Of a DNA stretch of 64,000 nt, positions 1 through 64,000 are shown piece by piece. A program made the position numbers and the translations under genes. The stretch spans positions 2,294,001 to 2,358,000 of the forward strand of contig OZ017755.1 in NCBI GenBank assembly GCA_963969365.1, given 5' to 3'. The DNA comes from Asterochloris sp. CNOR1. Taxonomy: Eukaryota > Chlorophyta > Trebouxiophyceae > Trebouxiales > Trebouxiaceae. The notes beneath the pieces are model-generated. The model worked only from the letters and a program-made list of their open reading frames with translations. It was not told the DNA's origin and did not search any database. Every line of letters starts with the position of its first letter. The first letter of the stretch is position 1.

Positions 1-3000
1 ACTGCAGTGCGCATGCTGGCAGCATGACTGCAGCAGGGGCAGGCCTGCATCAGATGGGGAAGCTAGGGCCATACACAGCTCGCCCGCTCCAGCCTGTCCT
101 GGAACTGATACTGCAGCTCACCTGCTCTATCTGGTCCCACAGTAGGCAGGCCACAGCTCAAAAAGCTGGCCACATCCATCTTGTCCCAACATGGGCGGGC
201 CACAGCTCACCTGCTCCATCTTGTCTCGAATGAGGCGGGCCACGTCCGCCACCGCCTCCTCGCCAACCTGCGCCAGCTCCTGAGCCTTCTCAGGGGCATG
301 CTTGACAGCGTCAGCTGCAGCTGAGCCTGCCTGCACACGGACACACATGAGCATGTGAGGCCATGCCCGGCTGCATCATGCAGCTTTGTGGGAGCCACCC
401 CTGCTGCAAAGCATGTTTTGGGACGACGCGGCAGATGGCTGACAGCCAGCTGTCCTTGTGAACCTGAAGCAGACACGTTGCCCCAGCTGACGGCTTTGCA
501 ACTACAGAACGGCCGTGAAGGGGCCCAACCTGCTCAGCTAAAGCACTGGGTGGACACAGCGCCCCAGAAGTTGAGCGCACTTAAAGCGCACACTCCCTGG
601 CGATAACAAAATAGTTTGAAATTTATGCTTGAAGGCAAACTCTTGCTTGTCATACCGAAAGCTTTTGGCACACCTGACCGCGACTGCACAGCAGCACATG
701 GGTTTGATTGCCAGCCTGCTTGGCTGCCTTGACGGTCTGCAGGATGCATAAGGCAGCCACCCCCACATGCTGGCAGGATCAAGGCTTGTACATCTGGCTT
801 GGTTTCATAATGCTGATGATGACAGTACCAATCTTTCTGCCTTGCATGGCTGTCTCGACAGCCTACAGGACGGCAAAGGCAGCACCTCCCATGTGCTTTT
901 GCAAGCGGAGGGGTGCTCACCTGCTCAGCCTTCTCCACTCCAATGACAGTAGCCCCAAGCCCAACCTTGCCAGCCTGCTTGGCTGTCTCAGCAGTCTGCA
1001 GGACGGCAAAGGCAGCCACTCCCACTGCCATCTCTGCCAAGTTCTCCAGCTTGTCCGTAGTCAGACTGGCAGCCCCAACTGCCACCTCAAGCCCCTGCAT
1101 TAGCAGCGTATACATCAATGCGTATCTCTGGATGCCAACAACAATGCCAATTTTGTCAGCACTTTCAGAATCAGTACGGTGACAGAGTGGACAGTGTGTG
1201 GCAGCCCAGTGCCATGCCCAGCCCCAACACCAGCAGGAAGCTATAAGCTGCTGGGATCAGTCTAGCCGCTACTTGTGCCAGAAGAGTATTTTGCCAGAGA
1301 CCCAGCTATCCATGACAGCGACGGCAAACAAACCTCCAAGAGTAGCAGCAAAACCATACTGGGTACTGTGGGCAGCCATTGGCTTTCCAGGCTTGAGCAT
1401 GGCCTGCAGTGTAGCTGGCTGACTATGCACTCAGGTAGAGGCAGCACCGCGCAAGGGGACTAGCTGGTGCATCAGGTCGCGAGCCTAGCGTTCCTGCTGG
1501 CATCTTAGCACATGGGGGTCACAGGTACCAAGACAGATCAGCGCCTTTCAACAGATGTGTCATAGATGGAGACCAAAAGCAGCTCGTTGACCTGGTGTTG
1601 CCGGGTGCCTGTTGCAGGCAGGCAGTGCATGGCAGCCAGTCACAAGCACAGCGTTGCCCAGGATAGTGCTTGAATGCAAAGCTCCTCACTGCAGTGAGGC
1701 TTGCAAGTATATCCTCTACCTGATGCAGATGCTGTCACTCAGTTGGCAATCCTGGCACCGGCACAGGCTTGCAGGTAGCCCTCTACCACATGCAGGTGCT
1801 CATGCACCTGGCTGACTCTGCTGGCATTGGCGCCACCCATGACTTATCTTTGACTGGCAGAGCAGCTGACGTGAATGTCCCACTGTGTGCAGGTGCTGGC
1901 ACATCAGTTTAGCGGTGCAGCCCAGAAGCATGCACCTCACCTTGTGCAGGTACTGGTACAGCTGGTTGGCAAAGCTGGCAATGGCACTTGCTATGTCGCC
2001 AGCAGCGTCCTGCGCAGTCGCCACAGCATTGCTGTCCCCACCATCCCGTGCCTTGCTGTGGGGGTAGCTTGTGACCTGCAGCAGCCAGGCAGGCAGTGTA
2101 GCAGTCAACATAGACTGAGCATACAAGCAATGTGGAAGCCCCTCTGGGCATCTGGCAAAATGCTGCCTGATGTGCAGGCTGCAGCATGGCAAGGGCTCTC
2201 CATCCCTTGCAGAGGCTGACCAATGACCTGTGCCCTGTGTCCTGTGACTGTGACCTGCAGCAGCTGCGCAGGCACAGGGCACTCCATGCTGGTGCACAGG
2301 AGAAGCCTGACATGCACTGTGCAGCTGTGACCAGTGAGAGCAGTGGGCTGTGACCTGCAGCAGCCAGGCAAGCAATACTGCAGCACACGCCATGCGGTGC
2401 TAACCCTAGGTGAAGGCAGATATGCAGCAAGGCACCCTCTGCCAAGCTGCCAAACTGCTGCCTTGGAGACAAGCTGCTCCCCCACATGTGGCATCCAGGA
2501 TGTGCTTGGGCTCCAGCGTGTGGCTGGCAGCAGCCAGGTAGGGGCAGCATAGATCAGCCACAGCTTGCCTGAATCGGCAAGACAGAGTCAGACTAGCAGG
2601 CCAGACAGCTGGCTGGTGCTATGGGGCTCCCTTCAAGACTGGCTGCTATTCACTGTCTGCTTCAGACCTAAAGTTGTGTTGAATGCACTGCACCCTCAGG
2701 TACAAGGTGGGCAACCCCTCTGTCTTTCTCTGTGGCTTCTTGGGCCCCTCCATGGCGCTGTCTGCAGAGCAGGGCACTCACAAAACCGGTCCCATTTCAG
2801 TTGCCCTTCCTTTACAGTCCTGTCCACGTGTCTCAGTCAAGTCACAAGACGAGCACTGCAGTGTCCAACCTAGTGCACTTTCTGTTGCCCTGGGTGTGCA
2901 GTACCTGAAGCACAGATCAAACCACCTGCGCAGTGCCCCTTCTCCTGATATGCCTCCTCCTGCCCACGCTATTCAAAGTGCACTACACTCTCAAAGCCAT

Positions 3001-6000
3001 CATCCTCAGGTCACAAGGCCAGCATGGCAGTGTCCAACCTGGCCAACATGCTGCACTGTCTCTTGCCCCAGGTGTGCAGCACCTGAAGCACAGATCAAGC
3101 CAGCTGTGCAGGGCCCCTTCTTCTGTCGTGCCCTCTCCTGCCCATGCTATCTGCACTGCACTGTACTCTCAAAGCCAACATTCCACCGTTCCACCTGGGC
3201 ACAACTTCCTACCTCATCTTGCTGTTGCCAGGGATGTGCCCGCAGGCCAGCAGCACAGTCCCCACCTGGTGCAGTTTCTCCCGCTCCTCTGGGTTGCTGT
3301 CTGCAGAGCACTGCATCCTCATGAAGACAGTGCCCCACCTGCAGCAGTTTTGCCTGCCGCATCATGCTGTTGCCTCAACGCTCCGCTCGCCAGCAGCGCA
3401 GTGCCCCACCTGGTGCACTTTCTCCTGCCCCATGTGCAGCACCCTCACCACAGTGTCCATCGTCTTCTGCTGCAGCGCATCAAACATCTCGCGGGTCTGC
3501 TGAGCGGTGTTCAGCGTTGCTTCGCGTACTGTGCCCATCACGCCGCCGGCTTTCTGGCGGGCTGCCTCAGCGGCCTGGGCAGACCTCTCTGCAGGCAGGA
3601 AGTGTGGATGACAGGTGATGCCTCAGTTGTCTTCTAGCAAACTCAGAAGAAGAACCACTTGACCTTCAAGGGCGGAAACAATAGTTACATCAGGTGTTGC
3701 CATTCTGCAGCGCTGTGAGCAGCTTGTCTGGCCTGGGCAGACTGCTGTGCAGGCAAACACAGCAGGAGATCAGGACGCAGCCCATCTAGGAGCAGCACAA
3801 GGTCTGCCTCGTGAGGCAGACTTCTGCAAGCCAGAGTGCAGCAGGCTCATTGTGAGCTGCAAGAAACACTGAGTTTTCAGCAGAGTGCCTGGTCCGCTGT
3901 GCCTGGCCACTGCAAGCAGGGCCTCGAAGCAACTGCACAGCTGCCAGAGCATGGCTGATTGCAGACTGGAGGGGGCTCGAAGGACGCATGGCAGCTGCAT
4001 GGAAGGGGAGGCCTGTGCAAGAGGCCTTCAATGAAGGTCTGTGTACAGGCAGGTTGAGCCAATCGTGTCTCTGGGCTGTGTTGGCGAGACGGCTGCCAAT
4101 TGGCAGCCGAACCAAATGAGCTGCCAGCCACCACCTCCTGGGCATGCCACTGCTTGCCAGAAGCATGGTGGGCTTGCCTGTGGGCTGGTGGCTGTGCTGG
4201 CCCTGATGCACTGTCACGCCAGCCCCTGCCTGCCAGGGAGAGACCCCAGGACTGAGGCCCCACTGCAGTGGGCACTACAGGCGGCCATGCATGGCCTCAC
4301 CAGCACTCCCCTCGGCTCCAGCCCCAACATACGCCCCTACTAGAGGCAACCTTACAAGTCGAAAGCAGAGCAGCCCGGGCAGGGTGACCTTCAGGATGCA
4401 GCCAGCTTGCCAGTGGTTTTTGACGGTGTGCCAGTGGACAACAGCAGAGACAGGCACCCTCACGTCCGGCCACACTCACCTTGGACCTTGCCCCAGCTGT
4501 GCACCTGATGTTACTTTGACCCTGGTGCCAGCCCTGAAAGACCAACCTCCAGCTGCCCGGCGCTTATAGGTGCCTCACCCTGTGCCGCTGCAGCAGGAGC
4601 CAATGGCAAAGAGCCAATGGCAGTGAGAACCTCACTCATAGCCACTCTCACCTTGGACCGCCTGAGTGACCTCCTCCCCCTGCTGTGCAGCCTCATCAAT
4701 GGTCCTCTCCACCTTCTGCCGCTGAGCCTGTGCCGTCTCCAGCGTGGTGGACTTGACTGCCTCTGCAGGCATGCGCAGTAAGCTTTGTGGGACAGAGTGG
4801 TGGCTTGGCTGCCTCTGCAGCCTCGGGGTGTCAAACAATTTTTGTCTTTGAGCCCCAGGGTGGGGTAGGGGAGGGTGAGGATACGCATCGCTTGGTGGAC
4901 CCGGCTGCTTCTGCAGTGCAGGTACACAGATTCTTGGTGCTGGAAGGACAACGCCCACCTGGCACACATGCGTAGTAATGCCTTGCAGCAGAAAGGTCTT
5001 GTTGCTTGGGGCCTCTGCAGGCATATGCACAGCTTGATTGGATCTGCTGGGGAGCAACCTGGCTGGGGAGATGCCGACATCTTGCAGCAATGTTCACAGG
5101 CGTACCCTGAGTTGGCACTGCATTACTGCAGGATGCCCAAAGGGCATGCAGCGGCAGAGAAGATGGCAGAGGTTCAAGAGAACCAACGTGCTGGGAGGAA
5201 GGCACTACAGTGAATCAGCACAAGATTCCACAGACAAAATGCGTCTGATACTGCTTCTGCTGGTGGCTTTCTTGCATCACGGTGCAGCCAACGACTCCAC
5301 ATGTGCGCCATTGCAGCCTGCCTGGCCTGCTCCACGAGCTGCCTACGTTCCCAGCAAAGTCAGCAGCATGAGAGCCCACCTGCAGCCTGCCTCGAGCTGT
5401 CCATGGCTTGCTGGGCTGCTTGGGAGATGCTGGCAGTGGCCTCACTGGCACAGTGCTGGACCTGAGCCGTCCTCTCCGCTGCAAAGCGTGTAGCCTCACG
5501 AGTACGCTGCTCTGCCCTCTCAGTATCCACGACAGGGTGCGAGTCCGCAATGCCTGCAGGCAGACACCAGAAACGCTGGGTGTGGAATACAGGTACACTT
5601 GTGCACAAACAGAGGCAGGCTGTGTACCACCAGAGGGAGAGACCTCCAGCGCAGCGGATGCACGCTGTTGTGCTCGCTCAGGATCTGCTGCAGGCTCAGG
5701 GTCTGCAGTGCCTGCAGGCAATCGCCAGCAGTACTGCGTTGAGATGTTCAGACATGAAGTTGCAAAACGTAAGGAAGGCGGTGCACCACTGGGCCGGGAG
5801 AACTCTGATGCAGCGCGGCCACGCAGAACTGCCCTCTCCATGTCTTCAAACGGCGGCCGTTCTATCAAAGGCGGACGCTCTGCAGTGCCTGCAGCCAAGC
5901 GTCAGCTTGTTGGGGGGAGGGTACTGCATCCAGCTGCAGAGACAGAGGCGTGCTGTGTGCATCACCAGTCTGGCTGTACTCCACTACAGGTGCATCTTGG

Positions 6001-7183
6001 GGCCCCTGATCAACCCATTCAGGCTCTACCACAGGTGGCAGCTCCAGAGTGCCTGCAGGCACGCGCCAGCACAGTTTCAGGTGTATGCTTTGGCAGCCAG
6101 TGCCTCAAGCAGAGGAGCTCTGTGCACCACAGGGGCGGCAGCGCTCCAGTGCAGCACGAGTGATCTCACGAGCATGGCGCTCTGGCTTCTCAAAGTCTAC
6201 TATAGGCGGCGAATTCACAGTGCCTGTACACAAGGGGATGGGTCATGGGTCATGTGATGGACAGCCATGAGTCCCAGTGCAATCTGTGCACCACTAGGGC
6301 AGCAGAAGCAGGGCTGTACCAGATGATGTGGGCGTCTGTGGATGGAAGCTGGCAGGCTCTTCTGAGGAGTACTGCTCAGGTGTGCTGGGAGGAGTGAGCT
6401 GAGCCACAGGGGGATTTTTTGCTACAGAGGCATCCTTTGATTCCAAAGGGTGGTACCGTTCTGCAGGTTGTGTGGGAGACATGGGTTGGCTGCAGCCTAA
6501 GCAAAATTTGGCAGCCTGGCGGCGCAAGCTGCGGTTGTGTCTGCTGTCTTTTGTCATGAGGCACCTGCTCTGGTATTTAACCTGGGCGCTTTTAAAGGGT
6601 AAGTGACCTTTAGGTCGCATTCAGGCAGCTTCACAAGAGACACCAAAGTTGTGCATGTGCCAGCATGCACCACAGTGGCCCTGCACGGCTTGTACAATAC
6701 AGTTGTGTACACAGGCTAAGCTGCTGAGTCTCCCAGCAGCAGGCAGCCTGCCGCACAAGGCCAGCCACACAACACAATCAGCGCCTAGTCTGAAATGCAG
6801 GCGTGCCATCACTGATCCCAGCTGATCTGCACAGCTATGCTGGTCAGAGGCTCATGCATGCATCTGATGTGCGAGTGGTGTTGGACAGCAGACCACGCTC
6901 GGGGTGTCATGTCAAGCGTGATGCGCCCGCATCACCCTCACAAGACCCCAGGCCAGAGAGCCGCAGGTGCAGGCAGTACCAGGCAGCCTGAGCTGCCCAG
7001 GGGGGCCTCACCTATGATCTGCTGGCCCCTCCTGCGGGCTTCCTTGGTGTCAAATGGAGACCTGGTGCCTTCCATGTGAGCCATGGGGCTGCCCAAGCTT
7101 CCGTAGGAGCTCTGCAGTCGGGGTGACACCAGCGCTGCTTTAGACGACGACGACAAGTACTGAACTGCTGACAAGGATGACAT
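1..7183 (-). CDS. LEA-like hydrophilic repeat protein, partial (3' end beyond window)
   Basis: The start codon is at 7183 and the first exon (7012-7183) begins MSSLSAVQYLSSSSK. Supported exons on the minus strand are 7012-7183, 6320-6460, 6128-6223, 5966-6052, 5787-5888, about 5628-5711, 5380-5553, 4652-4762, 3410-3588, 1941-2075, 921-1094 and 211-330; more may lie between. The product is rich in Ala, Glu, Gln, Lys and Arg with long amphipathic helices, for example EAARQKAGGVMGTVREAT (3410-3588) and EKAQELAQVGEEAVADVARL (211-330). This is the composition of group 3 LEA-like desiccation/cold protectants, although no single signature fixes the family. Exons 3 to 7 are related to each other and carry a PPVVD-ERA-type core. 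The first seven exons are joined by phase-1 introns. Function as a stress protectant is inference. The gene is cut by the left edge, so the C terminus is not seen. Confidence 0.6.
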
Positions 7184-9050: not shown

Positions 9051-12000
9051 CTATGTGTCACTACTGCCAGCGTCACTATTGGGCGTCAGCAGCTTCAGTT
9101 GGGCCATAATGTCTTTGAAAGAGGGACGCCTGCATGTGCAAGCAGAATGTAGGGAGCAGGCATACTGACAGATTTGCAATAAGCAGCATGTCTGCAGGTC
9201 CCAGGCCTGACACAAACATACTTTGCTTGTGGAATGCCTTGTAAGGGCACTCTGCCCAGACCCTAGCTGGTCTTTGACACACAGGAGACTCACAGTTCTG
9301 GCTCGTGCTGCGTGCAGTCCAGCACCATCTGGGCAAGGGATCGCATGATGGCCTTGCCAGCAGCATCCAGGTTGTCAGGGATATTGACGGGGCCCAGCTT
9401 GGGCGTCTCGCCCATATACCATTGCGTCTGGATCTGTAGCAGAGGGGGCAGGGATGCAGAAGGCTTTCTGACAGGGGCGGGCGGTTGATCCCCATAGCTG
9501 TCAGCATACGGAAGGGCCTCTCCGACAACACATATGTCACCCTGTGTAAGATGCAATCATGAGGGCCCTACCCCAGGCAATACGCTCTCAAAGCCTACAT
9601 TTTCAGAAAAGGTGTAGACCTAGAAGTCAATCACGCTGCCAAAGGGCCACTTGTACTCCAGCACCTCTCACTGAGTAATGCCAAAGGCCCTGCCAAAGCT
9701 CCAAGCTGGTCAAAAGGTTGCACCTGGAAGCCATTGGTGCCTCCAAAGGGTTCAAAGTGGGGCGCTTGCTTCTATCAGCTCGTCCCTTCTTTGGTCTCAG
9801 GACCCCAACCCAACCATCCAAAACGTCAAGTCACCAAGTGGCCTCACCTGGAAGCCGTCCATGCCCCCAAAGGGGCGCTTTCGTTCCAGTACCTCCCACA
9901 GCGTAATGCCAAAGGCCCACACGTCCGATTTCAAAATTGTGGCCAGGGAGTCCGGCTCCTGTCGCGGGCTCTCCACCAGCAGCAGCTCTGGTGCGGCATA
10001 GGCAGCCGTGCCTATGACACCAGCCGTCAGGCTGCGTTCCAGTGTGGGCCTCTTCTGCGTTGAGCTCTGCTTCAGCGAGATGAGGCGGCTCATCCCAAAA
10101 TCGCCAATCTTGGCCTGCAGGCCATAGCCTGCACAGACAGCAGCAGCAGTGGCTCAGGGGAGAGCCAACAGATTACAGGAGGCAGCTCCCCCACCAGCCA
10201 CTAAAGGAGCGGGGGCCTGCAACCTCCAGGGGTACAGCAGTCCAGGAGACATCAGTTCCTGTGTGCTGGGGAGTCCGGTTGGCTGGACAATCTACCACAC
10301 ATGGGCAGCCCATGAGCCACTTCTGCACAGCCTCTTGTCAGCAGTAGAGGATGCACTGCCATGTGCTGTCACGCCATTTGTGAGTGTCAAGACGCGCAGA
10401 CACTGCCTGATAGCTCCATGACCAGCTAGGCCACGCATCTGAGGGCAGCCATGACCTTGAGACACAACCTCATTTGAGAGTGCAGGCTGGAGAAGTACAG
10501 CCCAGCTGTGTGACACTTGCTGTTGCAGCAAGCATGGTCCTCAACCCCCGAGGCTGGTGATGGAGTGCCCTCGCAAGGATAAACAAAAAAGATGTTTGCC
10601 TGTATGCTGATGGCCGCATCAAGCAGCGTCCTTCCTCTCCTGCCTACAGGAGGGATCCTCCTGAGTTTCCAAACAGAAGCCCTCCCGGATGCTGCACATC
10701 TATGGTCCTCTGCCACCATGCTACCTGACACATGGATGCAGCGCTTGACGCTCCCAAAGCATCCCAAGGGCATCCTGGCACCCCAGAGCCAGCCATAGAG
10801 ACTCATGGAGCTGCACCGCGTCCCCACACCACTGCCATAAGAAGCTATTGGCCCCCCAAACCCTGCTTGTGGACTGTCAGGATGCCCCAAGTGTGTGCAG
10901 GCAGCACACTACTTTGCGCTGGCAGAATGTGCAGCAACCTCAGAGCTAGCTCCCCCACCAACAAAGATGTCGCCTGCCTGGCTCTCAGGTAGCGCCACAA
11001 GGACCATTGTCGAGGGCAGCCCCGCCTGCTGTCGCAACTCCAGTGCCCTCAGTGCAGCAACCTCAGAGCAGCTCACCCAGGAAGATGTTGCCTGGCTTCA
11101 GGTCGCGGTGCAGCAGCGGCGGTCGCTGTGCATGGAGGTGCACCATGCCTCGCACCACCGCTATGAGCAGCGCCACCAGCTTCTGAGGGTTCCAAAACCT
11201 GCGAGCGCTGTGGTGCAACAGCAAGTCCAGCGTCCCCCGCGGACAGTACTCCATCACCAGGTACAGCTCGTTCTGGTGCTGGCACAGACCGCGCAGGGCG
11301 ACAACATTGTCATGCGTGCCTGCAGGGCAGCCAGTCCACATGGGGGTGCAGCAGCAGGCTGCTCTGGTGCCAGCACAGGTTGCCTAGAGCGACAGTACCA
11401 GCTTGCGGGCCTGCAGGTGACGCGGATTGCAGGACAGATAGTGGGAGCAGCAGCAGATTCTCAGGGTGCAGCAGGAGCCAGCCGGGAACAGGAGGCAAGC
11501 TCCAGGGTGCAGCAGGCTGCTCTGGAGATGAAGCACTGCAAGCCGCCCACTGCCCAAGCCTGCTGGAGACAAGGAGGGCAGGAAGCCATGAGCACATGGG
11601 TGCAGATTCTGAGGGCATGCAGCAGAGGCCCCAAACCACACCCTCTGCTTAGAACGCCTCCACCTGTGGCAGGAGCCCCACAGTCTCCATTTGCATGTGC
11701 CAACATTCTCCCCTCCCACTCAAGCCACCAACCACGAGGCCCACCTGTGCTCAGGTTCATCTCCAACTCGGTGGACGAGGAGGTCTGCTTCACAGCGACG
11801 GGCGTGTCCAGATACATGCAGGCGTGCACTGGGCCCTCGGCGCCCCGCCCCAGGAACCTGCCCCACACCAGGTCCTCATATTTTATGATGTCGATGGACA
11901 CCTGCAGGGGCGCATTGCTTCAAATGATGTGGACAATTGACCTGGACTTGCCCGCATCGACGAAGTCAGTCAGTCATGCCCTGCATGGTTGCAGGTGCAC

Positions 12001-15000
12001 CATCAGGTCTGGGCTCTGTGTGTTTAAGAGATGCCACTTGGCATGTGCAGCGGGCAGCCCAGCCAGGCCTCAAGTGTACAGGGGCTGCCTGCAGAGAGGT
12101 TGTTAGCCCATAAGGTCAAGACTTGCGGACAGCGCCCATGGCGGTGCATGCTGGCAGGCACCAGGGCAGTCCTCAGCCATGTGAGAGTTGAGCAGGCGTC
12201 CAGCCAGCAACAGGCAGCTGCGCTTGTGAGGGCCATGAATGCTGATTGCCTGCGCAGAGCTGCTGGGGCCCCATCTGTGCCATGCACAGGGCGTGTGGAC
12301 GACTCACCTTAGGTCGTTTGAGTAAGCGAGCCACCTCATGAGGGCTGGTGGCAGCTGTGCTGCTGCCAGTGCTGGAGGATGCCATCCCCAAGCCAGCTGT
12401 GCCAGCCCCCAGATCAGGCCCAGCCCCTCCTGGTGGGAAGGCTTGGGTTGTGGCTGTGCTGTCCTCAGACATGGGACTGGGTTCCTGCAGGGGTCAGTAC
12501 ATGTTCTGAGGGGCAGCAGAGCATGTCATTTGTACTTCACTAGGGCAAGAGGTTACTCTTGGGCAGGCTGCCAGCTTTAGGCAGCAGGGTGCAGACAGCT
12601 CTGCTTTGCATGCTCAACAAGCCTGTGCGCTTGTGTTGCAGAGGCAAAGAGCAGAGTCTATGGGTCCAAACAAGCGTCAAAGTCGTAGGAAGCGGGTTTG
12701 ATATGCTGTTGAGTGCCTCATCTTGGCCGAACCGAGCATACCTGTACTTGCTGAGGGATGCTGGGCTCATTTGACTGTTGAGCTGCAGCATCCTGCATGT
12801 TTGCAGCTCCCCCCTGCGCCTCCTGCTGCAGCATGACCTCAAAGGGCGAGGTCGGAACTGATGGTACACTGCTGATACGTGACTGCAGAGGCTGAAGGCC
12901 CCCCTGCACACCACAGGGGGCAAACAAGCTCAGAGATCACAGTCGGGGATCTCAGCGCTCCTGTCGCTCTTTGAATCACATGGAAAATATCCACTGGCAG
13001 GCTGCAGCTTGGGGGACCAGCACTGCCGTGTGCATGTGGCCATGCAGGAGGCGCTGCAACTGTTGAGATGACACCCTTGGTTGAGGTTGTAGTGGGCACG
13101 GGTGCTGAGAGCTCGGCTCACCGGGGCCAGCGTGCTCTGTGGCTGGCTGTCGGCAGAGTCTGAGGCCTGCGACAAGCCAGGTTGCTGTTGCTGCTGAACC
13201 GCCTCCATGCTGGACTGGCCTGCCTCTTGCTGCATGCCCAGAGGAGGGTGCAGCACCTGCAGGCGCACCAGATCTTGGCGCTGCTGTAAACGAACAGGAT
13301 CCTACTTGGCCAAAGCACTCCCTCAAGGTCATTCATGACACTGATTCTGCAGTCAAAGCATTGTATGAGGCGGGCTGGATGCTGCCAGATCACCACATGA
13401 CTTCAATCTCATCACTGCTGAGCTACCTTGGAGCCAGGGTTGCAGTCAGTCGCTGACCATGTCTGGCTTGATGCAGACCTCCCATGTTCCAGACCACACG
13501 TTGGAACGGGCCTGTTGTCCATCATTTCAGTGAGACTCTGGAACAACAATGCGTGCCTCCACCTTGCAGTCTAGGCACTTTACTCACTGCGTTTACACTT
13601 ACCAGGGAGAGCTCAGCGGGCAGCTGCCAGTTGCACATCTGCTGAGGCAAGTGCACCCTATTGCGCACAGTACCTGTTCAGGCAGTGGCCTTTCAGAGAT
13701 TTTGGAGGCACAGTCGGAGGCAGCTGCCCCTCCACGCTCTGGGCTTTCTCTGTGAGGAGGCAGACACAGGACAACCCCCGCAGTCAGGACACCCTGTATT
13801 CACATGCACACAACAACCTCACCTCGTGGTGTTCATCCACAGGGGCCAGCGGCAGGCCCGGCGGCAGCTGCCCCTCCAAGCTCTGGGCCTTCTCAGCCAG
13901 GAAAGAGGCAGACACAGGGGGCGCTCCCTGGAAGACTGCATGTCCCTTCTGGTGACGGGGTTCCGCAAGTGCGCCGTCTGTAGAGATGCGCTCTGGCGAT
14001 GGCGCTGGGGAGCGCGACGGCCGCTGGCTCTCCACAAGCTTGTGGTGCTTGGAGACACGGAAGGTGCCCCCTGGGGACAGACAATCTGCCAGGCGCCGCT
14101 TGAAGCGGACAGGGACTGACCGTGTTTTGGCCAGGCCAGGGGTTGCACCCTGTGCCTGCAGGGAGGCAACATCAGATGGTGCCTGAGTGGTAGAGGCATT
14201 GCACTGGCCTGGACTGCAGCTGTGCAAAGCATGTGAGTAGCTGGTAGTTGTGGGGGCTGTCTGAATGTGGTCAAGGTGGCACTTGTCTGCGCCACCCTTC
14301 CACACGTCCCCAGCTTTGACTTTGGTTTGTGACATTGAAGGTGTCGTATGCGTCAGAAAACTGACACTCTTGGGGGGCCTCTAAACGCACAGCTCCCCCT
14401 ACACATTCAGAGCTTGCCCAGGCCAGATCTGCCTTACACTCAGCACACGCCACTGCATAGCAATGCACAGGCAAGGGCAGCAAGTCGTCATGAGGCAGCG
14501 GCCACCACGGGGGGTCCACATGCAGCCCTTTGGTGGTCCTCCATTGGGTGCCCCTGACAATTGCACAGCTGCCTGCTGTGTTGAACTTTCCCTGCAGCAG
14601 GGGCTCTGTGCCTGCAGGATACCCCTGAATACCTGCAGGTCCTTTTTGATCTTCTGAGGGGGAAAGAAACAATAAGGAACCCTTCGTCTACTGCAGGGCA
14701 CACCTGAAGCCCCGCAGCGCCCACAACAGCGTCCTGCTTCTGATTCTCCTCCCTCAGAGCGTCCAGCAGCGCCGCCACAGGGACGGTGTGGCCCCGAAGC
14801 AGGGCTGGCCCCTCTGGCAGGCTGCCAGCCTCTGGGCTGCCACTGCGCATCGACCCCGTGGGGGTCCCTGATGGAGCCAGCTCCAGCATGCCCCCCGTGC
14901 TGGGGGTCATGCTGTTCTCAGGGGTTGTCAGCAGCCGTGAGCGCGCCCTTTGGGCCACCTGCAATCCACAGCACACCCTCTACTCCATGTGCATTGGCCC

Positions 15001-34835: not shown

Positions 34836-34954
34836 TACAATACAGAGCTCTGATTATAAGCAAGTGACGCTGCAAACTTATGTTGCAGTTGATCAATGAA
34901 CTTGACCTCAGGGTGGCAGTGCAAAGAACATGCCTGGGGGCTTTGCCAGCTGCC

Positions 34955-44263: not shown

Positions 44264-47200
44264 TCAGGGAAATTGCGGGTCCGGGTGCATTACATGGGTT
44301 GTGTGGCTGTCAGCATCAGTGCTTCCTTCACTCTGCAGCGAGTCTCTGCTGGTTTGTGTGTCTATGACTGATACGTAACCGGCTGCCATGGGGGCATCTG
44401 TACCAGTCTGCAGGAGGCCCCCCTCTGGGGGGCCTGCTGCATTGCTGAGCAGTGCAGCTGGCTGGCCAGGGCTGCGAGTTGCATGCTGCATGCCTGCTGA
44501 GTCCCTGGTGGTAGGCTGCAGCCCCACCGCCAGGTTGCCATCATCATCCAGCCAGGGGCAGGCGGCTTCTGGCAGAAGCAGCACGTCCAGCTGCAGCTTC
44601 CCCTTGGCTGGCAGGGCTGTGTCCCATTGCTTGGCTGCCACGTCAAACACCTCCCCAGCGGGCGACTGCCCAGCTGCTCGCAGGCCTTTACCGTCCAGGA
44701 CGATGTTGCTCCACGTCGCGAAGCCAGCCTGCTTGCCCTGCAAGAGGGGAGTGAGACACACCTTCACTCTCTGTGTGACTTGCCCAATCCTGGACTGCTT
44801 GATGATGCTCGACCTCCAGGGACCAGCCTGCTTGCCCTGCATGTGCTGCACAAGCTGCAGGTTGTGTGCATCCATCATCAGGCCATGCAGGCACTGCGGC
44901 AGCTTCTGGGCAACAAAGCTGGGCAAGGCACAAAAAGGGCACGGTCATCATGCTGAGCTCCTCACAACTGCAGATGCTGCGCAGCTGCAGCTGCAGGCCA
45001 CACCACTGCTGCAACTGCTTTCTTCATAGATGTGCCACCAGCACCCACTGCTGACTGACCACCTCTGCTGCAGTCCTGTGCTGTCACTGCTTTCTTTGTG
45101 GTCGTGCCACAAGCATGTACCTGGCTGACAGGCATGCCTGCCACTCAGCCTCCAGACAGACAGGCATGTCCAACCTGAATGCTAAATGCCACCAACACCT
45201 GCAGCATGCCTACCTGAAGCTGCTCAGGCTGCAAGAGCAGAGCACCTTTTACCCTCCACCAGAGAGGCATGACACGATCATTGCTTCAAGCTGAAGCATG
45301 CAGCTGGCTGTCCAGGCTGATGCTGCACAGGCTGAGACCCACGTGTCACGAGCAAACGGTCAGCTTGCAATATGCTGACCCCCAAGCCCCCCTGAAGCTC
45401 GTGCTGTGCAAGCTGCACCACCACGGCTCTATACAGGGAGGCACAACATCATGGCCACTTTCCAGCTGCAGCATGCAGCACGCTGTCCGGGCCCTTCCTG
45501 CAACATGTGCTGCACAAGCTGAGCCAAGATCCCTGACCGGAACACCTGCAGCTGGGGCACGCCTAGCCCAGCTGAAACGTGTTGCTGCACCACCCTGCTA
45601 ATCCCTGAAGGTGAGGCTGCACCAGCTGCGCTGCCACAGTCCTTTTACACATGAGCATGCACCATCCTGCTCAACTCATACCTGGAGCTCATGCTTCACC
45701 AGCTGCTCTGCCACAGTCCTGTCCCTGTCCACAGCCAGGTCCAGGAGAAAGCGCCGGCCCACAGGAGCTACGGCCGCTGCTGTAGCTGCCGCGGGCGGGG
45801 TTGCAGGCTTCTTGGCGGTTCCCTGTTTGCCTCCTGCGTCGCCTTTGCCCTTCTTGCCCTTCTCCTCTGCAGGAGGCTCAGGCTCCGGGGGCAGCTGCCT
45901 GTACATCAGTCAGCACAGACCCAGCTTGAGTTGCTTGACTCTGCTGCCCTGCCTCGCATGGCGCACACATGCAGCCCCATGCTCACAGCAGGTACACTGC
46001 CAGCGCACGCTTCAGCGGCACTGCTGGCTTGCTGGAGGTCAGCAACTGTGAGACCCGGCGCTCACCTCTCAGTGGTGCCAGTTGCACAGCGCCCAAGCTC
46101 GAGCCTGAATCGTGGGTGCGCCTGCAGGTGGGTCTGCAGCTGGCGCAGCAGGCACTGCCCGGCCACACCCCCCAGCACTGTCTGGCTCAGGTCCAGGCGT
46201 GTGAGAGCCACCTGCCCTGAGCCAAAGGCGACAGCCAGCGCCATGAGCCCCTGCAGGTGCCAGGAAAAGGGTCTAAGGTTTAGGCAAGTCGCCCGCCTGG
46301 TCAGGCTCCAGTTGAAGCCAAAGAGCCATGCCCTGCCTGCCCTTCTCAGGTATGACATGCAATTGCATACACGGGTACACTGCAAGGCGCTTCTACGCTG
46401 CCTGGGGACAGGCAGGCAGTGTGCACCCTGTGCGGGTGCCGTGCTCAGCTTGGCATTAGCTGTATGCTTGTGGTCGCTGAGCCTTTAGGGGCGCCAGCGT
46501 GCTGGAGCTTCTGCTTTCGCCAAGCTGGCCACCCCGTGGAGAGGGCTGCAGCTTGCTGAGCACCCTGAACCTTCCAACCCTTGCCCTGTAGAGGCAGCCG
46601 CAGCCTTGCTGAGCATGATGAACATTCCCTTTCTTGATGCACAGAGCTTGCTTCCCCTGTGCATTTGCAGCAAGCTTTGGCCCCCACCACGCGGCAGCAC
46701 AGATGGACGATAGAAACAACTGGCAGTAAAGCTTTTGGAGCTGTGCACCCACCTGGTCCGACATCTGCACCCTGCTAAGGTCCAGACTCTCCAGTCCCAG
46801 CCCCGGCTGCTGCAGGCTGGCAGCAACTGCTGCCAGCCCATCTTGCAGACGACACCAGGAGATACTCAGGTGCCTGAGGCCGACCCCTGCATGCAGCCAA
46901 AGTGCCGCCTCTCATACACTGTCGAGTTGCAGAAAATGTTCAAGTGCCTGAGGCATGCCCCTGCATGCACCAGCTGGCCTTCTCCAGCATGCTGGCAATG
47001 TGCATGCCACAGCCACCCTGTGCAGCGTGCTGCACAGTGGCTGCTGCAAGAAGCTGCCTCATTCCAACCAGTAGAGGCCTTTTGCTAGTCCAGTGTACGT
47101 CGTGGCATTATAGCATATTGCTGAGAACTGCATCGGGGAAATGGTGACCTTACTCAGTCTTGTAACAAGGCAGTGCGTTGAGCACAATGCAGGACCGCCC

Positions 47201-50200: not shown

Positions 50201-53200
50201 GAGGCGGACATGGGAACTCTGATGAGAACCGAGTGGCATGTCACTGAGTCATATACCGGCAGCTACATGTGAGTGGATGCATGTGAGGATTGGGACATTG
50301 GGCGCAAGGCATCAGCAGCAGGGTGCGAAAAGTTGAACTGAGGCTGCAGGTGTACAGGAGGCATCGATGCAGCTGTGCCTCCACTGGGAGTGCCAGGACG
50401 GGGGCCGCTGTTCATGGCATGCCGACCTTGCACGCAGGAGATTCACTTCAGCAGCACTTTTGTTGTCTCTGCAGTGCACACACAGGGCAATTAGTGGCCA
50501 GCACACACCTGAGTCGTCCAGCGGCATGTGTGACAGGTTGAGCACGCTGAGGCGCAGCTGCGACAGCACAAGGGACGAGGGGCGGCAGGCCAGTTCCGCA
50601 CACTTGGCAATGTAGCTACGCTCAGGCTCTACACTGGGCCCTGCCTGCAGCCCATGACACAGAGAGGTTAGCTGAGAGGTGGAGGGGCACAGCTGGAAGC
50701 GGTGTGCCTCTGTCTCATGCTCCACACCGGGCCCTGCCTTGGCCCAGAACACACAGAGAGATGCTCAAAGGTAGAGAGGACCACTGTGCAGTGTAGCTCA
50801 GCCGAGGTTCTACACCTGACCCTGCCTGCAGCTCAGCACAGCAAGATGAGCTGAAAGACAGAGTGAGTACAGTTGGACCCAGCCTGGCTGCGGCTCAGTC
50901 TGGTGCAGGTCAGCGTAGCTGACAAGGTGATGTGTGGCTGAACGCAATGTGCTCTCAGCCAAACTCCACAGAGACGGCGGGCTGGCTGCCCAGACACAAT
51001 CAGCCACAGCTGTAGTGGCTGCAGCGTCTGGCTGGGCACCTGCCCCTGATATAGGCAGCTGCAGGTGGGCAAATGCTGCTGTCTCTGAGGGCAGGCAGCG
51101 CACTGCAATGCATCCAGACGACATAGGGCCGCAGCCTCAAGCAAAGATTGTGCTGTCTGCGCTGAGTAGGTACACCTTCCAGGCTTGAGGTGGCCCATGT
51201 CATCATATACCCAGCTGTGGTGGCTGCAGCACCTGGCTAGGCCCATGCTCCTGCTGAGTGACATCTTGTGCAGACGAGTTGCCATCGTGAGAATCATGCA
51301 ACGTGCGGCCATGCATCCACCCACAGTAGTGCATCCACAAACCAGGGGGCTGCCCCAAACAGTGTGTGTACTGCCAGCCTGGCCTCAGCTCACCTCCAGC
51401 GAATAGGCTGGCAGGCTACCCAGGTCGCTATCAGCCTCTGGATTGGTGGCGACAATGTCTGGCTGGGCACCCGCCCTGCCTGGTGGTGTAGCATCCCACG
51501 TGGACAGGTCGACATGTTGCTCAGAGCTGCCAGTCATCACGTCATGGAGGGACAGGCTGCAGCCAAAGAGGTAGCTAGACTCAGATGATTGCAGAGTTGT
51601 AAAGCGACATCTCACCGTCAGCAGTGGGATGCGCTTGTGGTCTGTTCCAGGATGCCATGCTTCAGGGAGCACAACATGAGATTGCCCTGCTCAAATTGTG
51701 CCCGGCACATGCAGAGACAGGCGGTCAACTGCTAGGCTTGCGGCATCTCTGGCTATCTTGAGGTATCGCGCTCCAGTAGTAAGTGATCAGCGTTGCAGAA
51801 TCAATACGCTGTCCCAAAGCTGCAGGGCCAGGCACATGCACACCTGTGCTGGTGCCTGATAGCCATGCACACCTGCCTGAGATGGCATCCAACTGCAAAG
51901 ATGCCGCCCGTGCACACCTTGGGTTGATGCTGACTGCACATGCACGTGCAGAGGTTCCGCATGGACACCTGAGATCGTGGCTGGCAGTGCATACACCAAG
52001 AGATGCCACATACACACCTGGCCTCGTGGCTGATAGCGCCTGCCTGGCCATCTTGGCCTGGCACCATGGCACCGGTCTTCAAGCGCAGGATGTCTGCCAT
52101 GGCATTGGCCTCAACGTTGCCGAGGGAATCCTCACCCTGCAGCACAGAGGGAGGCCTGAAGCGCCGCTGGTGCGCAAGACGGGGCTGTGTGCTGAGGGAG
52201 TCCTGCTGCAAATCCCTGCAAGCAGATCCGGCGGCCCTAAGGATGGCGGGCCTCCTGTGCTGCACGGACGGTGAGGCGGCCAGTGAGGCAGTCACTCTGT
52301 GCTGCCCTACCTGTGAGGCAGTCCACTCGTCCGAGATGGGTGCCATGCCCAGCAGCCCCTGTTGCAGCTCCTGCGTGCCCGATTTGGCCCCTGTGGCCGC
52401 CCAAGACGTCCTGGTGAGGCTGCCCCCAGCCACAGACTGCCGCCTGCTAAGCGGTGACGGTGGGCCGACGAGTGTCGACCCTGAGGCTGCTGTGGACCCC
52501 CGCGGGGTGAGCACAGCAGCTGCTGGGACCAGGCCAGGGCCCCTCACGGGGGTGGATTTGGGGCTCATCAGTACAGAGCCCCCGGCAGAGGCCTTTGGAC
52601 TGCGCGCCGCAAAAGACTGGCGTCGGGGAGCCATGCCTTTCCGCGAGGAGGGGGAGCTGCTCAGCACTGCAGCAACATGCATGGATCCTCAGGTGTGCGA
52701 AGCCTGGCGCCTGTAGCCCTTGCACAGTCTGCTGTGCGATAGCAGAGGAGAGGGAGGGTGGAGGGCCAGCCTGCCAGCTTTCACTCACGATGCTTGAAGC
52801 AGGGTGACACATGACTGCAAATGTTATTTGCACCTAGAAGCCCTGCTTGACTAGCAGTATACAGAAATTGCGGACCCCCAGCCTCCAATCAAGCAAGGCC
52901 AGCGCTGCTGTGCAGAGCGCTTTACGCCTGCTGGGTTTGCACCAGAGGCAGCCCTGCCTGCACCACCCCATGACCTGCCTGGTGACCGGGACCGGCGCTG
53001 CTTCTTGGGGCTCATCAGGTTGGCAGTCCAGGACCCATCTTCCTGCACAGGTACTGGTGTGAGTGGGCGAGATTATTCACAGAGCCGCCTGAGGGACATC
53101 CTTCCGCAGAGGCAGATGTGCAGCAAGGAGGGCTCATGATGCAGGTCTGCCACCGCCTGCAGGGCAGCCCAGGACCTGTCCTCTTGCTCAGAGCAGCTGC

Positions 53201-54390: not shown

Positions 54391-57300
54391 TCACTTGAGC
54401 TCCTGGCGCAGCCTCCCCGCAAACACCGCCATGGCACTGCTCAGGTCCCACTCGTTGACCCGCTTGTGTTCCAGCTCAAAGGCCACGGCGTGCTGCACCT
54501 GTGCAGCTGCCTGTTTGCGCGCCTTCTCCTGCAGGCAGCGATGCCGATCCTTGAGTGGCCAGGCTGCGCTCTGCGTTGTTACCTGCATGAGCACGGCCCA
54601 TCTAGGATGAAAGGCAACGCAGCAATGTGTCGCTGGTGAGCTTCAAACAAATCCTTGGCTGTGTGAGGGGCTTTCAGATGACTCACAGCAACATTCAGAT
54701 GGCCCAAGTATGTCTGACATGGGAGAGGATATTCAGACGGCGCAGCCATTGCCTGTCACGGCAGCTCGAGGGTGTGAGGCATCACAGATACAGCCTGCCA
54801 GCCGCCCAGTGCCTCAGCAGACAGACCTTGAAAGAGAGGGTTCAAACCCATGTCTGAGCCTGGATCAGCCGGGAAATTGATCCGCAGACCTTTGCGGAAG
54901 CAGCACAACCGTGGTGCTTAGCAGATGCTGCAGTCATTGGTTGACAGGGTTCAGGGTTCAGAGTTTACGGTGCTCAGCTGACCTTGAGGGAGCGCAGAAT
55001 GGGGTTGGTGCTGTCCAGAATGCCCATTTTTCGGAGGTAGGCAGTCTCCCCTGCAGCAATGCGCTTCTTCAGGGTCTCCTGTACCTACAGGCAGGCAGGT
55101 GGTGCACTTTATGCGCTGGCTGTGACGAGAGCCCTCCGCCCTCGAGAGCACTGCACGGTGCTGTGGCAAAGTGCAGACATGCAGTGGTAGTCCAGCTACG
55201 GCTTGAGGTGCGTACATTCACACAGCACAGCATGCCGCCCACAGAACACCTTTGCAGGCACAAGTGGCAGCTGGCCGTGCAGCTTGGCAGCTGCGGCTTT
55301 GCTGCTGCCTGCTGTGCAGTGCTGGTTGTACATGTCTGCCCTTGCAGCGTCATAGGAGCCCGCTCTCACCTTCCTGTGAAAGGCTGCCTCCTGCTCCCCT
55401 CGCCACTCCAGTGCCCGCCGCCGCACCTCAGAGTTGAACTGCTGTGGGTCCATGTCCACATACACCTCTGTGTTGGCCAGGGGGCGCCAGGAGGCCCTGC
55501 ATGCGGTGACGTGCAGTGCTGCAGAAGTCCGCGCGTGACCAGCGCTGGGTGTGCAGCCAGGTAGGCAGCCAGAACCCTTTGTGCAGCACAGCGCAGGTTG
55601 GGGCACAGGTGTGGCAGGACCTGCAGGGACACACCATCAGAAGGCCCTGCAGCGCTCTGCCCAGACAACTGGCAGGTGCTGGCATGACACAGCATTTGAC
55701 ACTAGTCCAAGCAGATCTGCTCTGCCTGCAGCACACAGTACCCCAGGTCACAGCTGCAGAAAGTTTTCCACGCCAGAAGACAGCCCTGCTGCCTACTGCT
55801 GGAAAGGTCTGTCCCCTCAGCTAAGCCTTTCAGCATCTGGCCGGAGGGGCAGTGGGGTCATGACCGCAAATCTTGCAATGCGATGCAGGCTTGGTGGACA
55901 TTCCCACAGCTGCAAACTGCCAGGCTGTGAGGTGGGGCACACCTGTAGAGCCTGTGGCTGAAAAGCTTTCTTGTCAATCTCCCCCACCTGGGCCAGATCG
56001 GCCATGATTTCGACCAGCTAGACACACTTGCACAGCATGTCGCTGGTCAGGGTGTTCACGTGGAGCACCCTTTTCAAGGCAGGTCCTTAGATATGCCACC
56101 AGCCAGGGCGCACCTGCGCTGCCTGCTGCTGGCAGAGTCCTCCCCCGTGCCAGCCCCCAAAGCACCCAGCTTGAGCAGCGGCACAGGTGTGGCCCCCGCT
56201 GCTGCAGCCCGCCTGTCCATGCTGTTCTGGCGGCTGCCTGAATTTTTCCGCTGCATGCTGTTCTGGCGGCTGCGCGCTCCTGCTTTGCTGGGGCTGGTCT
56301 TGATTGCCCGCAGGCGCGGGGACTCCTGAATCTGCACATGCAGGCTGGGGAGGGGGACTTCGCCTGCACTGCTCGGCGGCATGGCAGCCATTGGTGGCTT
56401 GCTCTCCTCTGAGGCTGTGGTGGACGCTGCCATGCTGCTGCTCAGTGCACTGCGGGCGGCTGCCGAGTCTCCTAGAGAGACCTTCCGGCTCCTCTTCACG
56501 CTCCTGGGACGCCGCGTGAGGTGCACATTGTCCTACACAGTCAACGTGCAGTACTGAGCAGCACAACTACAGCTGGCAGCCCTGGGCTCCGTGTGAGTCC
56601 CTGCAGCTCTGCAATGAAGCCTTGTGAGGTCCTCAGCATCTTGTGCAGTCCAGCTAGGCAGCAGCGGCAGTCAGCAGCCATGCAGCTAAATCACCTTGAG
56701 CAGCCTGGTGGCTCTGTGTGATGCTCTCATGTTGCCGCGTCAGGTGCATGGCATTCTGCGTGTCATTCAGCGGTCTTCATCAACCACCTGGCAGCCTTAG
56801 CTGTTGCTGCCAGGTCTAGAGGTCATCCCAGCAGGACGCATGCAGTCTCAGGCAGGTTGCAGATGTGCAGCTTTGTGCCAGAAGGCGCAGCTTCTCTCTG
56901 CCATGCACGAAGGGCTGCATGAGACTGGTACTGGACAGCAGACTCCAGCGGCAACTGGATGCAGAACGACGCCTCCTCTTTCACAACCACAATTTACTGC
57001 AGAAACCAGCACTGGTCAGCAGCCTTAGCCGCAGCTGCTGAGTCCTGAGAGTCACATGCCTGTGCACCATGCTGGCAGCTGCAGTAGGGAAGGCGGCTGC
57101 TGCAGGTGCCTTGGGCGACCTCCCAGAGATTTGGCGGTGTCCACTAATGAAGGCGCATCATCTCTCAAGCGAAAAGCGCCGCATGAACGGAGCTCTAAAC
57201 AGAAGCCCCAGCCGCAACAGGCGGTCATCGAGAACCACCTGCGTTCGCCCTGAAGCAGCAGCTGCAGCACGGAAGGCTGCTGCTGCGGATGACTTCGGCG

Positions 57301-59033: not shown

Positions 59034-60479
59034 ATGGCATACCAAGGACTGCAGGGCCATCCCTGTTCTGTGGGCTCCTGCCCGCGAACCAGCAGCCGAC
59101 TCCACACACTTCCCCAGCCTTCTGTGGCCCTGCAATCCTCCCTGCGGGGAAGGGCTCTTGGATCTGGGCGATTTACAGAGACACCCCTCTGGAGCTGCGC
59201 GCTGCAGAGCAGGCATAGCAATGGCCGGAGAGTAACCGCCATGGCAGCAAAAGGTGACCACCAGCACACCAGGCAGCTCGCTGCATGTCGGCCTGGGCAA
59301 TAAAAATGACAGTAGAATGTGCAGTCACAGGAAGCATGGCCATTGTGCAGGTCATGCACATTGGGTGTGTGTCCTTTCTCACATGTTCACATCCCCGACC
59401 TGCTGGACTTCTGCCAGTTGGAGGTGCAGATATAGCTGTTCCGTGCTTGCAGTGGCGGGACTGATCAAGCTGGCGTTGCCAGCAGGCAAAGCAAACCCAG
59501 CGCCGCCTGTGGGCCCCGCACTGGGTGCCAAGGTAGGCCTTGTCGAGCGTGTTGCTTCTGCTGCACAGCGTGGGCGCCCGCTGGCAGGAAGCTGGACATA
59601 TATCGCCCAGCCTGCAGCCTCAGAGCAGCATAGCATGGCACCCTCTGTGTGCCGCTATGACTTGCATCAAGTGTGCCTCTGCTGTGCTGCGCAGGGCGTT
59701 AACATCATGGCCTTCTGTAAAGAGTACAATGCGCGGACGCAGGATAAAACGGGAACCATCATTCCAGTGGAGATCACAGTGTTTGACGTGAGTTCTCGAT
59801 CATCTGAATGTCCTTGGCCTGCATGGCTGCTCACAGTGCTCAGCCACCAGGGGATGCCAGGCATGGTCTCCTGTCAAACACAGTAGCTACACTATCATGA
59901 TGTTCCAAGGAGCTGGGCTGCAGGTAGGGGCAGAGCTGTGCTGGACGCGGTGCAGGGCCGAAATTCGCCTGTACCTGCTGCCAGCCATCTTACAGCCAGT
60001 GCTTCAATTAGTGCGCAGTGCAGCCTCTATTTTGCTGGAATGCTGCTGCCTGCCCTGCAGGACCGGAGCTTCACCTTCATCCTCAAGACGCCGCCTGCCT
60101 CTGTGCTGCTGGCCAAGGCCGCCGGCATTGAGAAGGGCTCAGGCACACCCAACACCCAGAAAGTGGGCAAGGTGTCGCAGGCTCAGCTGAAGGTGAGCTG
60201 GTCATGGCACAGTTGCACGTTGTGGAATTTGAGGCACAGCTTCTCCCGCAGCAGGACGCCTAGGGCCCTGGGGGGTGATCACTTGTGCTCCCTTTTCGCA
60301 CATATCAAGCATCAAGGTTGTGCTGCTTACAGGAGATTGCAGAAACCAAGCTGCCGGACCTCAATTGCACCAATGTGGAGGCTGCCATGCGCATCATTGA
60401 GGGCACTGCCAAGAACATGGGGCTCACAGTGGAGGCTCCTAACGATCCTGAGGCAGCCACAGCACCTATGGCTGCATGA
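59034..60479 (+). CDS. PRPL11: Plastid 50S ribosomal protein L11 (uL11c), nuclear encoded
   Basis: Exons 59034-59253, 59453-59532, 59695-59787, 60061-60192 and 60333-60479 give 223 aa. About 73 residues of Ser/Arg-rich presequence, ending [12 protein letters not shown], precede the mature start [21 protein letters not shown]. That pattern is a chloroplast transit peptide, and 59034 is the only ATG in frame. The mature part has [54 protein letters not shown] and [21 protein letters not shown], closer to plastid/cyanobacterial L11 than to mitochondrial. It binds the 23S rRNA GTPase-associated centre. Introns are short. Tail-to-tail with the CHCHD gene. Confidence 0.95.
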
Positions 60480-63420: not shown

Positions 63421-63610
63421 CATGTAGGCAGATTAGGCACATGCATGTGGGCGGCACTGCAAGCCCAGAGAAGCAGCTCTACAGTCAGAACATGTCAGAC
63501 ATGAAAGCATGCAGACGTCGAGTTCGAATGAAGTTGGTGATTAATACTTTGTCAGTCAAGGTCTTCACGGCAGGGGTATTCAGAACTGATGTGGTCGTGG
63601 CCGCTTGAGT

Positions 63611-64000
63611 TCACTTGCCCATAGAATCTAACTTCTGCAGCCATAGCATGAAGGTCTTCAGACGGGAAGTTCCTGCAGCTCATTTAACTAAGGAGCTGGC
63701 AGATGCAGTTGTAGTGCTGGCCCCAAGGCAAGGGCCCACCTCATCGATTATGGCAACCTCATTGTCATCCAGGCGCCAGCCCATAGCGCCTGTGTGCTCC
63801 TGCACATGCATTACGTTTTTGCAGCCAGGGATGGGGATAGCGCCTGCAGAGCACCAAGCCACGACCTGATGAGCTGAGTCTAAGCAGGTGTCAGGAAAGG
63901 GTGAAGCAACTGCAAGGGATTGTGTCTGCTGGTGGGCACCACAGTGCCTGCAGTGTGCACTCTGCCCAGGGGTGCCCTTTCAATGGCTGAAATGGCAGAC
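63611..64000 (-). CDS. Aldo/keto reductase, 3' end only (partial)
   Basis: Two exons are visible, 63740-63843 and 63611-63634. They encode GAIPIPGCKNVMHVQEHTGA-MGWRLDDNEVAIIDE then KLDSMGK and TGA. The IPG-(A/C)-KN and G-(A/L)-GWRL-EV blocks are the C-terminal NADPH-binding and terminal helix signature of NADP-dependent aldo/keto reductases, such as the plant pyridoxal reductase and PCNT115-like group. The active-site Tyr/Lys/His/Asp lie beyond the right edge, so substrate and activity cannot be judged. 63844-64000 appears to be intron. Confidence 0.85.

Follow-up and report, generated by a model that had tools for sequence, protein, structure and literature searches.

Internal duplication within genes was reportedly treated by Gao and Lynch in 2009, intron gain through duplication of AGGT-containing exon sequence is said to have been described by Rogers in 1989 and by Hellsten in 2011, and small tandem duplications arising from break repair were reportedly the subject of work by Vaughn and Bennetzen in 2014 and Schiml in 2016. 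Here we analyzed a stretch of 64,000 nucleotides from the green alga Asterochloris sp. CNOR1 (hereafter the window; C10:2294001-2358000), in which introns carry diverged, same-strand copies of the edge of the exon beside them, and followed these copies into further stretches of the same genome. The exon-edge copies are a real effect, present throughout the genome. As a duplication process this belongs to a known type; what is new is its density and its link with intron length.

Several described systems resemble these copies. The RdRp gene of potato contains a tandem duplication across an intron-exon boundary (PMC4974935). The likeness lies in a tandem duplicate that crosses such a boundary of the host gene, as at L024:6935-7140 (see below); the potato duplication made a new functioning intron, whereas here we commonly found a decaying partial copy in an existing intron, and this across many genes. 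Duplication of AGGT-containing exon sequence as a route to new introns, reviewed in PMC3443670, involves the same mutational step, but the signature of intron birth stood here at control level on average, with a single lead in 542 introns. In animals, tandem exon duplication covers 0.08% of exonic bases in the fly, 0.06% in the worm and about 2% in human, where introns are far longer (PMC9013439). There, as here, exon sequence is duplicated into introns of the same gene; coding bases with an at least 80% identical copy in the adjoining intron amounted to about 1.5% in our data (1,419 of 95,880), against the fly and worm values, a ratio that is rough because the methods differ. Small tandem duplications are the commonest insertions below 100 bp in human DNA (PMC8355091). 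Tandem duplications from break repair are likewise homology-independent, direct and placed beside their source, and their machinery is a candidate for that acting here, but the human insertions are shorter than 100 bp whereas the lags between source and copy in the 40 matches described below ran from 66 to 461 bp.

In green algae of the Chlamydomonas group introns are long and the usual peak of short ones is missing, and the account in PMC8226300 describes the driving mechanism as likely ancient and the benefit as unexplained. Exon-edge duplication may help make introns long. Its relics could be datable fossils of one candidate mechanism of intron lengthening, since the source exon stays recognizable amid the turnover of the remaining intron, and they let one see, as a natural experiment, which of two identical splice sites the cell tolerates. 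Among the literature matches listed, which leave most subscription papers outside, no title or abstract opening described widespread decayed exon-edge copies in algal introns.

Exon edges recur in adjoining introns

The sample comprised 324 kb, namely the window and 26 stretches of 10 kb from the same genome (56.38 Mb in 21 contigs). Eighteen of the stretches were preset, one for each of the chromosomes C1-C18 (2.0-4.5 Mb each), and eight more followed; they were placed at round coordinates and are not a random draw. GC content was about 58%. Raw frame 1 of bases 1-14999 contained no Pfam family, and gene models were therefore made first, using a gene finder self-trained on the sequence, so that all exon boundaries are predicted ones. 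The models comprised 603 exons (median 134 bp) and 543 introns (median 276 bp). They still merge neighboring genes (21663-43730 contains at least four by Pfam) and hence a few 'introns' are intergenic DNA; tiny predicted exons of 5-20 bp are doubtful. Exons shorter than 40 bp and introns with less than 60 bp testable were left out of the count of exon/intron edges.

Comparison of 930 exon edges with the adjoining intron on the same strand yielded 40 matches scoring at least 34, where random same-sense introns predict 0.45, and the reverse-complement comparison of these 930 edges yielded none at that score. The original prediction, that introns hold diverged same-strand copies of the adjoining exon edge, thus held far above chance. 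Non-adjoining introns of the same gene gave 10 matches in 6,508 comparisons, eight of which sit one intron further on, and the density per 100 kb of intron compared was 13.2 in adjoining vs. 0.45 in non-adjoining introns. The 40 matches were spread over 39 of the 501 introns and over 22 of the 59 gene models with more than one exon. When the window was compared with itself (E ≤ 1e-3), all 22 non-palindromic matches were direct and 61-549 bp apart, a 23rd being a palindrome that pairs with itself; five dinucleotide shuffles of the window gave two matches altogether. Pairs of at least 40 bits lying less than 1 kb apart were found in 14 of 18 further stretches. A G+C-rich sequence raises the odds of chance similarity, and the copies might on that account be an artefact of chance or base composition, but this is refuted and we give it practically no credence: in controls of the kind put forward as a check along with the prediction, shuffled sequence, random introns, a gene's own non-adjoining introns and the inverted orientation each matched far less often.

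The copies could alternatively stem from dispersed elements (introners, transposons) or from reverse-transcribed pieces of mRNA. Introners are reported mainly in fast-evolving lineages, green algae among them (PMC9860276), but all four loci of source and copy that were searched matched only themselves in the 56-Mb genome, in a search that skips very common words. Continuation into the other exon, which bears on mRNA pieces, reached p < 0.05 in six of the 40 cases; the three very strong ones were in introns of at most 93 bp, where the 100-bp test stretch overran into the exon itself, and an mRNA-copy origin was set aside. We regard such an origin as extremely improbable.

Copies located in the window

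Of the 198 edges tested in the window, 19 reached p < 0.02, where about four are expected. Edges that combined p < 0.02 with a score of at least 32 lay in the LEA-like gene (two), the membrane/kinase gene (four), the carotenoid oxygenase gene (one), the glycosyltransferase gene (two) and the 'LRR' gene (four). At least seven genes had been predicted to carry copies; five of the seven named were clear, the carboxypeptidase gene stood at chance level and the aminotransferase gene had no copies at 14 edges. Pfam independently backs the boundaries of three source exons: the RPE65 profile match in the carotenoid oxygenase ends at 24658, the predicted exon end; the GlcNAc profile runs from 38218, the predicted glycosyltransferase exon being 38220-38473; and the Pkinase profile spans 11078-11314, within a predicted exon at 11077-11319. 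Peptidase_S10 and Aminotran_5 were also detected by Pfam in the window. The LEA-like and LRR regions contained no Pfam family at E ≤ 0.001 in unspliced frames, so both gene names rest on the original prediction. A single intron of the membrane/kinase gene held three copies of the tail of exon 18575-18803, each with a score that was reached in none of 200 shuffled introns. The copies and repeats located in the window were as follows.

175..202, minus strand: decayed copy, LEA-like gene; source 215-242, 3′ part of exon 211-330; lag 40, 89% identity, score 32, p = 0.003
828..891, minus strand: decayed copy, LEA-like gene; source 961-1024, 3′ part of exon 921-1094; lag 133, 83% identity
2837..3181, no strand assigned: near-complete intronic tandem pair without exon, 2837-3003/3006-3181; lag 169, 78% over 176 columns
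5380..6223, minus strand: predicted exons, duplicated and kept in the gene model (5380-5553, 5631-5711, 5787-5888, 5966-6052, 6128-6223)
5504-5570/5662-5728 (lag 158) and 5702-5729/5879-5906 (lag 177), minus strand: exon-edge repeats among the exons of 5380-6223
9639..9690, minus strand: decayed copy; source 9867-9918, 3′ part of exon 9848-10128; lag 228, 81%
10929..10994, minus strand: copy of kinase exon edge; source 11052-11107, spanning the 3′ edge of exon 11077-11319 (Pkinase-supported); lag 123, 79%
13715..13770, minus strand: decayed copy; source 13859-13918, exon 13823-14155; lag 144-148, 83%
18099..18558, minus strand: decayed array of the 3′ end of exon 18575-18803 with donor, membrane/kinase gene; copies 18503-18558, 18164-18224 and 18099-18160
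19437..19475, minus strand: decayed copy; source 19542-19580, exon 19523-19681; lag 105, 87%
24613..24658, plus strand: source, 3′ edge of carotenoid-oxygenase exon 24458-24658, at whose last base (24658) the RPE65 match also ends
24771..24832, plus strand: decayed copy; source 24613-24674, the exon end and 16 bp of intron; lag 158, 85% (exonic stretch alone 93%)
33926..33971, plus strand: possible copy, 5′ edge of carboxypeptidase exon 34087-34193; lag 161, 74%; chance level
38081..38143, plus strand: decayed copy in the intron before glycosyltransferase exon 38220-38473; source 38234-38296; lag 153, 86%
38538..38570, plus strand: decayed copy, glycosyltransferase; source 38418-38450, 3′ part of exon 38220-38473; lag 120, 82%
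44801..44836, minus strand: copy; source 44702-44737, 5′ edge of exon 44332-44737; lag 99, 78%
45605..45643, minus strand: copy; source 45682-45720, 3′ edge of exon 45682-45898; lag 77, 85%
50601..50877, minus strand: short tandem array at the 5′ edge of exon 50509-50644, 50621-50739/50714-50827 and 50601-50697/50782-50877
50954..51045, minus strand: copy; source 51384-51476, spanning the 3′ edge of exon 51394-51556; lag 430, 72%
57075..57124, minus strand: decayed copy; source 57258-57307, exon 57239-57395; lag 183, 84%

The carboxypeptidase candidate, the single match in that gene (score 29, p = 0.01), is at chance level given 198 tests.

The copies hug the exon edge and decay

The aligned pieces of the 40 matches were 26-73 bp long, shorter than the 50-170 bp that had been claimed, and 73-97% identical to their sources, the mean being 45 bp at 84%. 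They hugged the exon edge that faces the intron: on a scale from 0 (facing edge) to 1 (far edge) the mean relative position was 0.11, with 39 of the 40 below 0.37. Copies had been said to include the splice site, and in 11 of the 17 that end within 4 bp of the edge the splice dinucleotide was indeed kept (six of 11 donors, five of six acceptors), where chance is 5-7% per position; in the other six it was not. To judge from the sequence, decoy splice sites derived from such copies are plausible.

Differences between copy and source were distributed over the three codon positions as 88/588, 78/589 and 123/588 (0.150, 0.132 and 0.209), the mild excess at the third position presumably being the expected addition from silent change in the exon itself. 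Twenty-six of 27 gaps were not multiples of three, some of them forming compensating pairs, and 16 of the 40 copies contained a stop or a frame-breaking gap. Since the majority of gaps disrupt the reading frame and change at third codon positions is only mildly higher, the copies appear to be decaying and not spare exons. It is very improbable that they are alternative or mutually exclusive exons, produced by tandem exon duplication and still in use. Such exons do arise in this way in other organisms (PMC9013439), the edge-reaching copies keep five acceptors and six donors, there were just five stops in 568 codons, and 24 of the 40 copies are free of stops and frame breaks over the aligned piece. 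These points are outweighed by the frame-breaking gaps, by third positions merely 1.4-1.6 times as changed as the others, and by the copies being partial and confined to one edge instead of covering the whole exon.

Copies of the end of the upstream exon outnumbered those of the start of the downstream exon by 27 to 13 at a score of at least 34 (p = 0.04) and by 25 to 10 at 36 (p = 0.02). At other cut-offs the numbers were 20 to 6 (at least 40, p = 0.009), 43 to 31 (at least 28, p = 0.20) and 4 to 3 (at least 60), so the asymmetry between donor and acceptor sides is threshold-dependent and suggestive only. As a proposal, donor-side duplications would survive more frequently, since it is the first donor that is used, whereas duplications on the acceptor side run the risk of being included.

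Similarity across the junction and near-complete tandem pairs

Beyond the aligned pieces, similarity extended toward the junction (z = 7.8) more than away from it (z = 2.2; Wilcoxon p = 0.003), and in successive 20-bp windows z was 7.9, 2.8, 2.1 and 0.3 inward and 3.1, 2.2, 0.5 and 0.5 outward. Gapped lenient alignment of the unit flanks was uninformative, with controls at 0.6 identity, and windowed ungapped tests were used instead. A local-alignment test gave a mean z of 1.25 ± 0.17 for the intronic flank (36 testable) and -0.04 ± 0.17 for the far side (34 testable); taken singly, six of the 36 intronic flanks reached p < 0.05.

There were 18 near-complete tandem pairs with 67-94% identity, some of them in one array, and for these the unit length equals the lag. 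The pair at L024:6935-7140 (plus strand) is exactly tandem, its 102-bp unit running from 50 bp of intron through the acceptor into 52 bp of exon; the copies are 94% identical, differing at 5 of 50 positions in the intronic part and 1 of 52 in the exonic part, and one of the 40 matches is this pair itself. At L022:2403-2630, a 114-bp pair with 93% identity begins 9 bp before a predicted acceptor. Because each unit length is divisible by three and both copies are read through in the gene model, these are duplications at a junction and not relics.

An alternative to tandem units is that break repair or slippage inserts short same-strand patches of a nearby exon (25-75 bp) into an intron some 60-450 bp away. 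With 30 of the 36 testable flanks at p ≥ 0.05, most relics are without clear similarity across the rest of the supposed unit; exon-edge relics are also mostly partial, the aligned length of exon-intron pairs being at the median about one third of the lag. Such patches do not account for pooled similarity that is stronger inward over the junction than on the far side, nor for the near-complete pairs, and inverted copies, which template switching is expected to yield at times, were absent. We consider the patches unlikely, if not negligibly so.

Direct local repeats beyond the junctions

Over the whole sample, pairs of at least 36 bits comprised 119 direct ones at lags of 20-600 bp and no inverted one under 600 bp; three direct pairs lay 1 kb or more apart inside the 10-kb pieces compared. 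By class, 67 were exon-intron, 31 exon-exon, 19 intron-intron and two intergenic, pairs from one array not being independent. At lags of 100-200 bp, direct 9-mer matches per million position pairs numbered 43.6 for intron-intron (17 at long lags), 38.0 for intron-exon (14), 83.4 for exon-exon (17-19) and 20.4 for intergenic pairs (8-12). The intergenic excess, from a small sample of 41 kb with two aligned pairs at 36 bits or more, was clearer at lags of 30-100 and 200-300 bp (38.0 and 38.1), and the exon-exon excess takes in in-frame protein repeats, for example the LEA-like exons at 5380-6223. Inverted 9-mer counts stayed close to long-lag rates.

Tandem repeats were also seen in predicted coding exons at L022:264-614 and L025:5770-6215, with lags divisible by three (75, 93, 132, 186); they look as if made by the same duplication process. 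A nucleosome-sized unit was considered and rejected, the lag histogram being broad and without a sharp peak.

Repeated local tandem duplication of exon-intron junctions had been offered as the cause of the copies. Local tandem duplication agrees with copies that are direct, less than 600 bp away and edge-facing, with inward similarity and with the near-complete pairs, whereas special targeting of junctions is not required, since direct repeats are also in excess within introns, exons and intergenic DNA. Duplication aimed at junctions in particular would fit the exon-intron share of all pairs other than exon-exon, 67 of 88 (76%) vs. 49-54% when random placement was simulated, with 1-bp insertions and deletions (indels) only. 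However, the 9-mer excess per position pair is alike for intron-intron and intron-exon pairs. Exon-intron pairs are detectable for longer because selection preserves the exon copy, and a doubled detection time alone implies about 62% exon-intron, by arithmetic from the simulation's numbers. The preserved exon copy explains part of the surplus, and aiming at junctions seems quite unlikely to us.

Probable duplication and intron turnover, and intron length

Frequent local tandem duplication, together with intron turnover by medium-sized indels, is in our judgment probably the best explanation of the exon-edge relics. Tandem duplications with units of roughly 60-450 bp would occur frequently, at junctions and elsewhere, and may originate in break repair or slippage. 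Where the unit covers an exon-intron junction the gene could survive, because splicing at the outer site would yield normal mRNA, leaving the remaining copy of the exon edge within the intron. There it would be free to decay through point changes, small indels and medium-sized indels, until a relic of about 25-75 bp remained near the source exon; the intronic part of the unit, decaying in both copies, would vanish sooner. Repeated rounds would lengthen introns.

We simulated junction-spanning duplication with fitted indels of 8-80 bp at 0.15 per substitution and a vmax of 0.35, outcomes being limited to the observed range of identity and length. The simulation gave an identity of 0.855, a length of 45.9, a gap to the edge of 15.9 and inward windows of 0.54/0.48/0.46/0.46, and the observed counterparts were 0.84, 44.6, 15.6 and 0.53/0.48/0.48/0.45 (control 0.45). 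Indels at about 0.08-0.15 per substitution jointly fit length, identity, edge gap and flank similarity, which would make medium-sized indels frequent.

Several results weigh against this explanation. A tandem model without medium-sized indels is rejected: it predicts an identity of 0.55-0.76 in the inward windows and 73-88% of matches within 4 bp of the edge, vs. 42% observed. The same data served to fit the indel rate, so the agreement is a matter of consistency and not proof, and the fitted run yields 0.34 gaps per match vs. 0.675 observed. Weak similarity is present on the far side of the copies too, the two youngest pairs (L024 and L022) show no relic in an intron, the exon-intron share exceeds that of random placement as described above, and 9-mer pairs that join intergenic DNA to introns or exons are barely or not at all in excess. 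The gene models, moreover, are predictions by a gene finder self-trained on the sequence.

Introns with a copy had a median length of 517 bp vs. 264.5 bp for those without, and of 346 bp after subtraction of one unit. Twenty-five of the 40 matches belonged to the quarter of edges whose introns are longest, against a control expectation of 0.2. The proposed link to long introns therefore stands as a correlation, and duplication may be what causes the length. More tentatively, it is possible, though we lean against it, that in this lineage serial local tandem duplication, of exon edges as well, does most of the building and lengthening of introns, that medium-sized indels keep it in balance, and that splicing decides which duplications survive. 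If true, serial duplication would give the long, so far unexplained introns of green algae a concrete engine.

The prediction had extended, as a possibility, to new introns. The signature of intron birth, in which donor and acceptor junctions are alike in register at a lag equal to the intron length, had a mean identity of 0.258 vs. 0.257 in controls. Three of the 542 introns exceeded the 99.9th control percentile (about 0.5 expected), one of them convincing, and beyond this lead new introns found no support. The lead, L026:9563-9688 (plus strand), is a predicted intron of 126 bp; its 3′ end repeats the end of the preceding exon, with CAG/GT at both junctions (the slash marks the splice point), as an intron that arose by tandem duplication is expected to show. 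The stretch is also open in frame, so it may be coding.

Other features of the sequence

A tandem array of a 45-bp unit (2.7 copies, 87% matches) at 47348-47469 enters the predicted exon 47464-47603 of the 'LRR' gene by 6 bp at its low-coordinate end. A gene for a plastid-type ribosomal protein L11, whose top match in the PDB is chloroplastic L11 (E = 1.9e-63), lies at 59241-60479 and indicates a photosynthetic eukaryote. The splice consensus was AG/GTGAG at donors and CTGCAG/G at acceptors, with a strong TGCAG/G, and the gene finder learned both from rough initial guesses.

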